Source: Planctomycetota bacterium
GTDB taxonomy: Bacteria; Planctomycetota; Planctomycetia; Pirellulales; Pirellulaceae
Length of the DNA: 46,178 nucleotides
Reading direction: 5' to 3'
NCBI GenBank assembly: GCA_963205385.1
Contig: CAUJKE010000173.1
Span: 1-46,178 of the forward strand
Of this stretch, positions 36,168 to 40,921 are shown piece by piece. Under the pieces are notes generated by a model. It was not told where the DNA came from and searched no databases. It worked only from the letters and a program-made list of their open reading frames with translations. How positions within the stretch are numbered: position 1 is the stretch's first letter; every line of letters begins with the position of its first letter. Both the position numbers and the translations under genes were made by a program.

Positions 36168-38498
36168 TTATTGGGCGCCGATTGCCGGCGGCATGGGAGG
36201 TGGAACCGACTTGGAGGGACGCGACTCCTGCGCGAGCAGTCGCTGGGCCTCTTTCAACACGAAGTCGGGGTCCATGAACGGATCGGCGCCGATGTCTTGC
36301 CAGCGCACCAGGCCGGCGCCGTCGATGACGAACGTGCCGTGCAGCGTGAGATCCTCGAAGTCGTCATAACAACGGTACTTCTTGAAGACCTCAAGCTTTT
36401 CGTCGGCGACGAGCGTGAACGGAACCGGCTCGGAGTAATTCTCGATCGATTGCTTCAGTCCGGCCATGTCGTCGCTGCTAATGGCAACCACGTCCAATCC
36501 GGCCGCCCGGAAATCCTTGACTTTGGGACCGAACGCCTTGAGTTGTTCGGCGCAGTGCAAGCAACCGTGTCCCAAGTAGAAGATCACCACGACCGGCCTG
36601 CCTTGATAATCGGCCAGCGAATGCGTTTTACCTTCGGCATCCTCCAGTGCCCACGGCGCGGCAGGCGACGGTTGCCACCGGAAGGGACCGAGCGAATCGA
36701 GCGCGGGGCGGATGCCAACATCGGCCGCCGGCGTTTTCGACAAGACCCATTGCTCGCCCCAGCCAAGCTCGACGGCGATCGGCGTCAGCCGTGCAAACGG
36801 CGCGGCGGACAAGTCGATCGACCCAGACACGTTGCGCAACGTCTCGAACGCCTTCTTCGCCTCGTCCTTCTTATCGGCCTTCCACAGCCACTCGACTTGC
36901 GCCGCGAGCGGCAACACTTCGTTTTTGTTCGAGGCGACTTGCGACGCCAGGCCTTTTAAGGCCCCGTCCTGATCGCCTGCGAGAAACTGGATGCCGCACT
37001 CATACAATTTGCCGGCGTTCCCGCCTGCCTTTTTGAGCAGTTCCAAAGCCTGCTTGTAGTCGCCGGCCTGGGCGGCTTGATAGGCTTGCAACTCGCTGAT
37101 GGTTTTTTCGAGGTTGGCGATTTTGGTGCTATGGGGCTTGCGCGCGTCATCGCGACGCTTGTCGCCGTCCTTCTTGTTTTGGCGTTCCTCGCGTGACTTT
37201 TGCTCCGCTTCCTGAGCGGCCCGATCACGCGCGGCGAGCGCTTCCCGCCACTTGGCTTCGAGTTCGCCCAACGTTTTCTGACCGGACTCCGTGTCGCCCG
37301 TGCGGAACTGGGCCATGCCGAGATACCGCAGGCGCTTCAATTGCTCGTCGGCATTGTCGGTTGGTTCCAGGTAAGGTGTTTCGGAAAGTGCGATGACTTC
37401 GCCCCACATTTCGAACAGCCGCAAGACCTCGAAGAGCCGCTCCCGTCCATACTTGCTGCTCCCTTTATCGAGCGAGTTGTACTTGGGATGCCGCGGCAAC
37501 TCGCACATATTTTTCGCCAGACTCAGGGCGTCTTCCGCGCGGCCCACATGGATCATGTTGCGAATCAGCCATTCATTGTTGTGGGCGAAGTTGTGGATCT
37601 GATCGGGGAGGACACGGTCGCGCATCATGTGGGCGTGATCGACGCGGGCGGATGCTTCTTGCTGGTAGCAAGCGTCCTCATATCGTTTTAAGCCGCTATA
37701 AATGTGTCCCGGCATGTGCCACATGTGGGCGATGCTGGGGGCGGCTTGTCCACAAATCGCGGCCGAGGCCAGCGCCTTCTCCGCGCGTTGGCCGTCCCAC
37801 AAGTGAATGCGAAAGTGATGCGCGGAGTGCATCGGTTCGACCGCGAACACTTCGCCGAGGAGCGCATCGATCGCGTGATAGCTTTGAATCTTCGAACCGC
37901 TGCTGCGATTGCGCCACAATTGGAGCGCGAGCAGCGCTTTGGCTTCGATGTCGTCCGGAAACTTATAGAGAATCTTCTCGAGCGCCTCGACGTAGCCTTC
38001 GCCGCGCTCCTTCTGCTTCGCCTCGTCGAACTTCATATACGCCGCGAGCGCCTCGATGTACATCCGCTCATGCTCGCTGACTTTGTCCTTATACTTTCCG
38101 GCGGTCTCGATGAACTTCTTACCGCGCGCGGTGTTCTCGAAGTTGGCGAGCGCCATTCCCCAGTACGCCATTGCGCACTCGGGCTCAAGCGCGGCCATCT
38201 GTCGAAAGCTCCGTTCGCTTTCGAAATACCAAAAGCCGTAATATTGCCCCACGCCTTGATCGAAAAACTGCTGCACCTCGGGCTTGTCCGTCGTGATCTT
38301 GAAGTGCACCTTGCCGGTCCCGCCCATCAAGTACGCCGCTTGACGGGGGCCTTCGTTGTAAACCTCGCCGTGGGCAGAATGCCCCGCCTTGAGTGCTTCC
38401 GGCGTATCGTCAGACTGAGCCTCTTGGGCGATGACACGATTAACGGCCAGCAGTGCGAGCGCGAGGGCAACGGCGAATAACGAGTGACGCAGGATCAT
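36168..38498 (-). CDS. Exported TPR protein with C-terminal redoxin (AhpC/TSA-like) domain
   Basis: 776 aa. A signal peptide is clear (MILRHSLFAVALALALLAVNRVIAQ). Residues ~70-420 are helical TPR-like repeats (FRQMAALEPECAMAYWGMALANFENTARGKKFIE and similar). Residues ~430-490 are a highly charged coiled-coil linker (EAEQKSREERQNKKDGDKRRDD). More helical repeats follow to ~600. The last ~150 residues are a thioredoxin-fold redoxin domain: LADYQGRPVVVIFYLGHGCLHCAEQLKAFG carries a CxxC pair (CLHC) at the peroxiredoxin position. A thiol-redox or peroxide-related role outside the cytoplasm is likely. It appears monocistronic. Confidence 0.85.
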   Translation of the reverse strand: MILRHSLFAVALALALLAVNRVIAQEAQSDDTPEALKAGHSAHGEVYNEGPRQAAYLMGGTGKVHFKITTDKPEVQQFFDQGVGQYYGFWYFESERSFRQMAALEPECAMAYWGMALANFENTARGKKFIETAGKYKDKVSEHERMYIEALAAYMKFDEAKQKERGEGYVEALEKILYKFPDDIEAKALLALQLWRNRSSGSKIQSYHAIDALLGEVFAVEPMHSAHHFRIHLWDGQRAEKALASAAICGQAAPSIAHMWHMPGHIYSGLKRYEDACYQQEASARVDHAHMMRDRVLPDQIHNFAHNNEWLIRNMIHVGRAEDALSLAKNMCELPRHPKYNSLDKGSSKYGRERLFEVLRLFEMWGEVIALSETPYLEPTDNADEQLKRLRYLGMAQFRTGDTESGQKTLGELEAKWREALAARDRAAQEAEQKSREERQNKKDGDKRRDDARKPHSTKIANLEKTISELQAYQAAQAGDYKQALELLKKAGGNAGKLYECGIQFLAGDQDGALKGLASQVASNKNEVLPLAAQVEWLWKADKKDEAKKAFETLRNVSGSIDLSAAPFARLTPIAVELGWGEQWVLSKTPAADVGIRPALDSLGPFRWQPSPAAPWALEDAEGKTHSLADYQGRPVVVIFYLGHGCLHCAEQLKAFGPKVKDFRAAGLDVVAISSDDMAGLKQSIENYSEPVPFTLVADEKLEVFKKYRCYDDFEDLTLHGTFVIDGAGLVRWQDIGADPFMDPDFVLKEAQRLLAQESRPSKSVPPPMPPAIGAQ

Positions 38499-38861: not shown

Positions 38862-38890
38862 TTGACTGATCCCCACTTGCGAAGTAGAAT
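38862..38890 (+). promoter_or_regulatory. leuA promoter
   Basis: TTGACT (38862-38867) and TAGAAT (38885-38890) are each five of six to the sigma-70 consensus, with the ideal 17-bp spacing. The start is expected near 38896-38898. That gives ~70 nt before the leader peptide and ~465 nt before leuA. Confidence 0.75.
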
Positions 38891-38965
38891 GGCGAGGATA
38901 AATTGACGAACGTTTACAAGCGAGGTGGCGCGAACCTGTGCCACTGGATATAGTTCCTATTACGC

Positions 38966-39022
38966 ATGACTTCTAATTTCCTACTGCCGCGACTGCTACT
39001 AACGACGGGTGACCGGCCGTAG
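38966..39022 (+). CDS. leuA leader peptide, 18 aa, Leu-rich (attenuation)
   Basis: The frame from ATG 38966 to TAG 39020-39022 encodes MTSNFLLPRLLLTTGDRP. Five of seven successive codons (38981-39001) are Leu: CTA CTG, then two others, then CTG CTA CTA. CTA is likely a rare codon in this G+C-rich genome, which would sharpen stalling when charged tRNA-Leu is scarce. There is no strong SD, though GGAT lies ~17 nt upstream. The Leu codons end 10 nt before the 5' arm of the antiterminator, and the stop codon lies at its inner end. This is the placement needed for classical ribosome-mediated attenuation. The peptide itself probably has no function. Too short for standard gene finders. Confidence 0.8.
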   Translation: MTSNFLLPRLLLTTGDRP

Positions 39023-39079
39023 GGTGGTATTGCGTGAAAGATCGTGAAACCCCAGGCCGGTCGGCTATGGGGTTTTTTT
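39011..39079 (+). terminator. leuA transcription attenuator: antiterminator and intrinsic terminator
   Basis: Terminator: AAACCCCA (39047-39054) pairs with TGGGGTTT (39068-39075), and GCC (39056-39058) with GGC (39063-39065) above it. The T-run is at 39073-39079. Antiterminator: GACCGGCC (39011-39018) is the exact reverse complement of GGCCGGTC (39055-39062), and GGG (39022-39024) can pair with CCC (39051-39053). The two structures share 39051-39062 and so exclude each other. A ribosome stalled at the Leu codons leaves 39011 onward free, so the antiterminator forms. A ribosome that reaches the stop at 39022 covers it, so the terminator forms. Confidence 0.82.
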
Positions 39080-39361
39080 GTTGGTGGGTATTCTGTGTTG
39101 GTGGGAATTCTATGCTCAATTGGATGAACACCTTGCGACGCCGAGCGGGGGGGCCTTCACGGGCCAGCCTCCTCCTGCGCGCGCCGGCTCGCGGCCGGCT
39201 GGCGACACGATGACCTGTGGGTCGTCGTGGCCCAAGGACACCCCAGCGCGTGGCGAATTGCCGGCGCGTCCGCCGTTTGTCCTGAGCTTCCCTGGCATTC
39301 ATGGCGCGGAAGTTGCGCTTTTTCCCATAACAACGAAACAATTAAAGTAAAGAATATCCCT
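39080..39361 (+). other. Long spacer between attenuator and leuA
   Basis: 282 bases. A TTG-started frame of 90 codons (39078-39350) has no recognisable product. A GCCGGC-TCGCG-GCCGGC hairpin is at 39183-39199. The spacing is unusually long for an attenuator and its structural gene. No second promoter is obvious. Confidence 0.4.
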
Positions 39362-40921
39362 ATGTCTGAACAAAAAACGTCCGCCACAACCGATTCCCCG
39401 AACCGTACGATCAAGATTTTCGACACGACGCTCCGCGACGGCGAGCAATCGCCGGGATGCAGCATGAACCTGGCCGAGAAGCTGCAGATGGCGCAGGCTC
39501 TCGTGGAGTTGGGGGTGGATGTGATCGAGGCAGGCTTCCCGATTGCTTCGCCGGGAGACTTCGAGGCGGTCCGCGAGATCGCCGCGAACGTGCGCGGCAG
39601 CACGATTTGCGGGCTGGCCCGGTGTAACGAGATGGACATCAACCGCGCGTGGGAAGCATTGAAAAGTTCCCCCCAACCGCGGATCCACGTCTTTCTCGCA
39701 ACGAGCGCCATCCATCGCGAGTTCAAACTCAAGATGACACGCGAGGAGATCATTCAACGGGCGATTGCTGGCGTGAAGCTCGCGCATAGTCATTGCGACG
39801 ACATCGAGTTCTCACCGGAGGATGCCGCGCGAACCGAGCATGACTTTTTGTGCGCGGTCGTCGAGGCGGCGATTGACGCCGGCGCGACGACGATCAACAT
39901 TCCCGATACGGTGGGCTATGCGGTGCCGCTGCAAATGGGCGCGACGATCGCGATGCTGAGGAACCGGGTTCCCAATATCGATAAGGCGACGATCAGCGTG
40001 CATTGCCACGACGATTTAGGCATGGCCGTGGCGAACAGCCTCGCGGCCGTCGAGCACGGCGCGGGGCAAGTGGAATGCACCATCAACGGCATCGGCGAAC
40101 GCGCCGGCAACTGCTCGCTCGAAGAAGTGGTGATGGCGCTCCGCACGCGCAGCGACTTTTACAAGGCCGACACGCGCATCCATACGCCCCGACTCGTGCC
40201 GGCCAGTCGTTTGCTGACCAGCATCACCGGTATGCAGGTGCAGCGCAACAAGGCGATTGTGGGACGCAACGCTTTTGCTCACGAAGCAGGCATTCACCAG
40301 GATGGCATGCTTAAAGAACGGACCACCTACGAGATTATGCGTCCCGAGGATGTCGGCTTTCAAGCGACCGATCTCGTGCTCGGCAAGCATAGCGGGCGAG
40401 CGGCGCTGGCGGATCGCGCGCGCATTCTCGGCTATCAACTCACCGGCGAGCAATTGCAAACGGTGTTCGAGGACTTCAAACGCTTAGCCGACCGCAAGAA
40501 GGAAGTCTACGACGGCGATATCGTCGCGCTCATCGAGCAGCAATTGTACGGCGTGGAGGAAGAAGAGTGGCAGTTGGTTGCGTTCGAGGCATCTTCCGGG
40601 ACCGGCCGCAAGCCGAGTGTGAAGCTCACGCTGCGACATGGGAACGAGGACCAGACGGTGGAATCTTCCGAGGGAGACGGCCCGATCGACTGCGCGTTCC
40701 TCGCGACCGAAAAACTGACCGGCTACAAGCTGACTTGCCAGGACTATCAGGTCCAGAGCGCGACGCTCGGCCACGACGCACTGGGCGAAGTGACGCTGGA
40801 AGTGGAATACCACGGGGAAGTCATTCGCGGGCGCGGCGTTTCGACCGACACTGTGGAAGCCACCGTGATGGCCATTTTGAATGCCGTGAACCGCATCGCG
40901 CAGCGCGTGCGGAAAAACTAA
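39362..40921 (+). CDS. leuA: 2-isopropylmalate synthase
   Basis: 519 aa from ATG 39362, the usual length for the full enzyme; the in-frame extension upstream is not homologous. Condenses acetyl-CoA with 2-oxoisovalerate, the first committed step of leucine synthesis. The N-terminal TIM barrel has [18 protein letters not shown], with the Arg-Asp substrate-binding pair. The metal-binding [37 protein letters not shown] block follows, and then [16 protein letters not shown]. Residues ~385-519 are the LeuA allosteric dimer domain ([27 protein letters not shown]...), so leucine feedback inhibition is expected. It is preceded by its own promoter and a leader-peptide attenuator. No other leu gene is in the window. 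Confidence 0.97.

Follow-up and report, generated by a model that had tools for sequence, protein, structure and literature searches.

The question that this locus raises is whether a planctomycete controls leuA, the gene for 2-isopropylmalate synthase, by leucine-responsive attenuation of transcription. The leuL leader of E. coli and Salmonella, with its Leu-rich peptide and its mutually exclusive antiterminator and terminator, is the textbook case. A sequence-only reading had proposed such a leader in the window, i.e. the whole stretch of 46,178 nucleotides analysed here from a member of the Pirellulaceae (assembly GCA_963205385.1, contig CAUJKE010000173.1). The following features of the window make up the putative attenuator and its gene:

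38862 to 38890, forward strand: promoter TTGACT-N17-TAGAAT ahead of the leader ORF, with 10 of 12 consensus matches.
38966 to 39022, forward strand: leader ORF (uORF1), 18 codons, MTSNFLLPRLLLTTGDRP followed by a stop, read from the sequence; Leu-rich ORFs are conserved before leuA.
39010 to 39025, forward strand: 5′ arm of the antiterminator, core GACCGGCC (39011-39018) plus GGGT (39022-39025), predicted with RNAduplex and overlapping the leader stop codon.
39047 to 39063, forward strand: shared arm AAACCCCAGGCCGGTCG, at once the 3′ arm of the antiterminator and the 5′ half of the terminator, from sequence, duplex prediction and fold.
39047 to 39079, forward strand: intrinsic terminator AAACCCCA...TGGGGTTT with a T-run at 39073-39079, hairpin of −17.0 kcal/mol in the predicted fold.
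39362 to 40921, forward strand: leuA, 519 aa, with Pfam HMGL-like, HCS_D2 and LeuA_dimer (PF08502), the putatively regulated gene.

The promoter that had been claimed is present, with TTGACT at 38862-38867, TAGAAT at 38885-38890 and a spacer of 17 as read from the sequence, and it is the best sigma-70-like site of the region. The leader ORF runs from an ATG at 38966 to a TAG at 39020-39022 and holds the five Leu codons attributed to it, three of them CTA (CTA at 38981, CTG at 38984, CTG at 38993, CTA at 38996 and CTA at 38999). The last of these ends at 39001, which leaves 9 nt before the antiterminator arm rather than the 10 nt given by the sequence-only reading; the stop codon does lie over that arm, as had been described, and this position is conserved among relatives. 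The gene upstream of the leader (36168-38498) is on the opposite strand, the leuA product carries the LeuA allosteric domain, and leuC of this genome sits on a different contig from leuA. The terminator is separated from leuA by 282 nt, a distance that is shorter in classical cases.

Both helices draw on the same arm. The 8-bp antiterminator core reported earlier, GACCGGCC at 39011-39018 with GGCCGGTC at 39055-39062, pairs perfectly, and the predicted duplex is longer than this (39010-39018 and 39022-39025 with 39049-39052 and 39055-39063), the extension of GGGT at 39022-39025 with ACCC at 39049-39052 spanning the stop codon. In RNAduplex, the antiterminator arm of the window and its own terminator arm reach −29.3 kcal/mol, the best of 52. 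The terminator was likewise found where it had been placed, with a stem of AAACCCCA (39047-39054) and TGGGGTTT (39068-39075) and seven T; it is absent from the output of a simple terminator scan, probably because its stem has a bulge. The claimed mutual exclusion agrees with the shared 5′ arm and with the energetics of the window: a ribosome halted at the last Leu codon, at a time when the terminator still lacks its 3′ arm, is predicted to let the antiterminator form (−26.6 kcal/mol), and a ribosome on the stop codon is predicted to permit the terminator alone (−18.8 kcal/mol). The full-length fold favours the terminator state (−40.0 vs −36.2), which would be expected of a default-off attenuator but is not proof of one. 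Folded as a single sequence, the leader of the window is only mildly unusual (z = −1.86), and the case therefore rests on conservation across relatives.

To this end, leuA and its upstream DNA were taken from relatives and from contigs of named genomes. The set comprises 77 distinct planctomycete regions together with 31 other loci, and the 700 nt upstream of leuA were scanned for short ORFs that start with ATG and contain at least 4, 5 or 6 Leu within 8 residues. At these three thresholds Leu-rich ORFs were found in 59, 47 and 27 of the 77 planctomycete regions, where dinucleotide shuffles expect 5.2, 0.95 and 0.05 and the other strand gives 2, 0 and 0. The next amino acid is Ala (12, 2 and 0), with none higher except Leu, and the 31 other loci have Leu-rich ORFs in 6, 2 and 0 cases. 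The peptides MHQNLLLPLLLLLLADDRP (L037), MNKNLSSLLPLLLLALSGPRP (L049) and MNRKLLLLELLLILPLAG (L098) are examples of these leaders. Downstream, the terminator starts 20-53 nt past the ORF stop in 52 of the 59 loci having at least 4 Leu in 8, typically as a G+C hairpin of the form AACCCCGAGGC...GCCTCGGGGTTTTTTT and then a T-run. Upstream, a promoter like TTGACY-N17-TAGAGT precedes the leader ATG, and 49 of the 77 regions score at least 10 vs 1 in shuffles; this part of the attenuator is recognized by sequence only. When the leader was searched as DNA in 100 genomes of the same family, chance matches only were obtained; it diverges fast, and anchoring on the LeuA protein is therefore needed.

In the relatives, too, the antiterminator arm covers the stop of the leader (GGCC-n-TAG-GGGTT facing AACCCC-ga-GGCC; 46 loci listed), at about −17 to +6 relative to the stop end in most loci. 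Over 91 loci, the stop-codon arm and its own terminator arm pair with a mean of −17.9 kcal/mol vs −14.4 kcal/mol for swapped arms; as controls over the same loci, shuffled arms give a mean of −12.6 kcal/mol, and flanking windows give −9.2 and −9.3 kcal/mol. Not one of 20,000 permutations was as good as the own arm pairs, and significance holds in Gemmataceae alone and also in the remaining loci alone. Among 16 Gemmataceae sequences, 91% of cells are paired in the 8-bp antiterminator and 98% in the 10-bp terminator, and double changes occur at 4 and 6 pairs, respectively, counts that overstate the number of events as related sequences are not independent; sliding the partner abolishes both helices. 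Judged from these comparisons, the leader with its two helices is conserved and covarying, and is more than chance. The sequence-only reading had predicted a Leu ORF and covarying stems in aligned leuA upstream regions of relatives, and this was borne out in dozens of genomes, order-wide and in Gemmataceae.

The choice of codons is also informative. CTA accounts for 19.6% of the Leu codons in 78 distinct leaders vs 1.6% in the adjacent leuA genes (p = 4e-56), an enrichment of about 12-fold (12.5-fold), and 59 of the 78 leaders lie above their own leuA. In the enteric leu leader, CUA is the sensitive control codon and CUG in its place lowered the sensitivity (PMC1183508). The Leu run of the planctomycete leaders is a mixture of CTN and TTR codons, so that the amino acid is conserved and the nucleotides are not, which argues for a leader that is translated and senses Leu-tRNA.

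We consider it very probable that the leuA leader is a ribosome-mediated transcription attenuator sensing charged leucyl-tRNA. Its parts, their conservation, the codon bias, the mutual exclusion of the helices and the covariation are direct observations; the switch itself would operate as follows. When leucine is ample, the ribosome would pass the Leu codons, reach the stop and cover the 5′ arm of the antiterminator, upon which the terminator at 39047-39079 would form and leuA would not be transcribed. When leucine is scarce, the ribosome would stall at the Leu codons, above all at the rare CTA, leaving the downstream arm free to pair with the terminator 5′ arm and allowing readthrough into leuA.

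Could the peptide itself be the sensor instead? Many leaders, including that of the window, end in Arg-Pro-stop, and in an arrest peptide resembling TnaC this C-terminus would stall the ribosome on leucine itself, the Leu run being secondary. Yet Arg-Pro-stop results from the GGCCgTAG of the antiterminator arm, the partner of the terminator arm, and the ending varies with the arm, reading (T/P)S-stop in Gemmataceae and R-stop in the Rhodopirellula group; an arrest peptide is therefore not favoured. The residue that is conserved is Leu, and its rare codon CTA is enriched; this speaks for decoding rather than for a nascent-chain effect, and we regard the arrest peptide as very improbable. The same low standing is given to a leader that controls translation of leuA, by masking of its ribosome binding site or by reinitiation, rather than termination of transcription. 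There are precedents for it, as actinobacterial leuA has Leu leader peptides without classical attenuation (PMC1262725) and leader-gene reinitiation has been proposed for several phyla, Planctomycetes among them (PMC4833913). Nonetheless, the G+C hairpin and T-run conserved downstream in 52 of 59 loci are mostly located far upstream of leuA, and reinitiation would call for a distance of 10-11 nt, which the leader stop does not have.

It is even harder to believe that the hairpin simply ends an upstream transcript constitutively, next to a Leu-rich ORF that is there by chance. Such intrinsic terminators are ordinary, and the modest z score of the single fold would suit one, but the comparative data already contradict this reading: the Leu ORF and its spacing from the terminator, like the stop-codon arm and the covariation, are conserved and specific to leuA. 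In addition, the upstream gene of the window (36168-38498) faces the other way.

In a 102-row tree of leuA, the leaders of the putative attenuator are clustered, with 11 changes vs 24.7 in shuffles, under a relaxed leader rule that also marked the proteobacterium L103, probably falsely. Leaders were found in Pirellulales and in some deeper lineages (L114, L121, L123 and L128), and in the family of the named Gemmataceae genome 23 of the 26 loci with upstream DNA have one (with relaxed start codons). Among the leuA regions scanned, none was found in a well-supported clade that contains Planctomicrobium (L083-L092), which suggests loss or a different mode of control; a few Pirellulaceae (L066, L069, L070, L080 and L082) also lack it, and the leader is not universal among planctomycete leuA genes. 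In the upstream regions of ilvB, trpE and leuC, from 24 relatives each, a Leu-rich ORF plus terminator was present in 0 of 72; of the genes compared, only leuA carries the leader in this group.

Some loci deserve separate mention. In the clade of L093, L100 and L101, Leu-containing ORFs precede a hairpin of very high stability, GCCCCGAGACC...GGATCTCGGGGC, whose T-run is weak or missing; this may be a variant attenuator. Contig C241 of genome G103 (L172/L176/L177) carries two inverted leuA copies 0.5 kb apart with identical scores and upstream elements, which is either a real duplication or an assembly palindrome. L137, L087 and L090 come from contigs labelled Bacteroidales and Candidatus Kuenenia, and their leuA falls within other planctomycete clades; mislabelling or contamination of these bins is the probable reason.

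Between the terminator and leuA we have identified a further element, absent from the sequence-only reading and common to Pirellulales (L033-L081, L177-L206). In the window it consists of the following:

39112 to 39213, forward strand: uORF2, about 30 codons, basic, MLNWMNTLRRRAGGPSRASLLLRAPARGRLATR followed by a stop, motif R(A/S)xLxL; an open frame with synonymous codons at Arg and Leu.
39151 to 39203, forward strand: match of the element 2 covariance model (R1), E = 3.7e-5 in its genome.
39183 to 39199, forward strand: element 2 hairpin GCCGGCT-CGC-GGCCGGC, 5 nt past the last conserved Leu codon, with a covarying stem.

An ATG lying 10 or more codons upstream leads into the uORF2 frame without interruption in all of 48 loci, vs 5 and 6 of 48 for the other frames. 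Across these 48 loci, Arg −3 is conserved in 39 (as AGG, AGA or CGN), Leu 0 in 47 and Leu +2 in 48 (as TTR or CTN). A hairpin, GCCGGYC-NNN-GRCCGGC, starts 2-5 nt past the second conserved Leu; its 7-bp stem has 93.8% of cells paired and 12 double changes vs 3.2 in shuffles. The covariance model of element 2 matches many of 118 genomes of the order, a set with which its 23 training sequences overlap only partly, and each of its 30 best matches is found immediately before leuA. An explanation as a genomic repeat was rejected, as the pattern and the best model matches are located at leuA. The hairpin has no T-run after it and lies 29-363 nt upstream of leuA, a distance that leaves masking of the leuA ribosome binding site unsupported; in the window, no complementarity of element 2 to the leuA start region was seen. 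In at least 6 loci, the L178 group among them, the uORF2 stop codon lies within the hairpin loop. In the window, an in-frame ATG at 39067, in the 3′ half of the terminator, would add 15 codons to uORF2 (39067-39111), and the start at 39112 is the favoured one, since in many relatives the ORF begins about as far from the motif. L083, L084, L085 and L087-L092 have neither the Leu-rich leader nor element 2.

On balance we lean towards element 2 being a second leuA-specific control element in tandem with the attenuator, in which R(A/S)xLxL would be read as the ribosome meets the hairpin, acting as a second leucine checkpoint or as a nascent-peptide switch. Candidate roles are a leucine checkpoint at which stalling on LxL would open the hairpin, an action of the nascent peptide, or an influence on Rho or on RNA stability.

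The planctomycete leader shares with leuL of E. coli and Salmonella a Leu-rich peptide before leuA, rare CTA control codons, and an exclusive antiterminator with an intrinsic terminator. It differs in having no detectable sequence relation to leuL, in an arm that overlaps the leader stop codon, in the long leader, in the separate contig of leuC in this genome and, in Pirellulales, in the additional conserved ORF-hairpin element. Rfam, with Leu_leader and all other families, gave no match to the window at the gathering score nor at E ≤ 5. The actinobacterial LEU element also has a run of Leu codons in a short ORF upstream of leuA, yet it folds into a pseudoknot in which the base stem joins the Leu codons to the ribosome binding site of leuA, and other attenuator parts are missing (PMC1262725), whereas terminator and antiterminator are clear in planctomycetes. 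Because of the distance to leuA, a pseudoknot of LEU type is unlikely in the window. The ilv-leu attenuator peptide of Staphylococcus aureus is likewise described as a Leu-rich leader of a branched-chain amino acid operon (PMC5794164), although of another phylum and operon. The tandem attenuators of Salmonella mgtCBR (PMC3641672) also place two short ORFs in one leader, one of them rich in a control amino acid, but serve other genes and signals, and the second ORF of Pirellulales precedes a hairpin without T-run. No description of leu attenuation in Planctomycetes was found in the literature searched, a coverage that mostly excludes subscription papers and leaves novelty unproven. Ribosome-mediated leucine attenuation is known elsewhere, and is here extended to a phylum for which no description was found.

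Ribosome-mediated attenuation requires a ribosome that translates the leader with RNA polymerase only a few dozen bases ahead. Since the ribosome needs to be close behind the polymerase, the leader bears on the separation of transcription and translation in planctomycetes, a claim made for Gemmata whose interpretation is disputed in the field. In Gemmata obscuriglobus, the two processes were reported to be separate (Gottshall et al. 2014, as relayed in PMC6212462 and PMC5394234). From the sequences we infer that the leader is translated in the cell, that it responds to leucine and that the ribosome follows RNA polymerase closely. Leu attenuation would reach a further phylum, with an additional conserved leuA leader element exposed. 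Moreover, the presence of the leader in Gemmataceae, the family of Gemmata, makes the dispute over separation genetically testable, through the leucine response of leuA via the leader codons. A leucine response that depends on the leader codons in Gemmata obscuriglobus would argue against strict separation.
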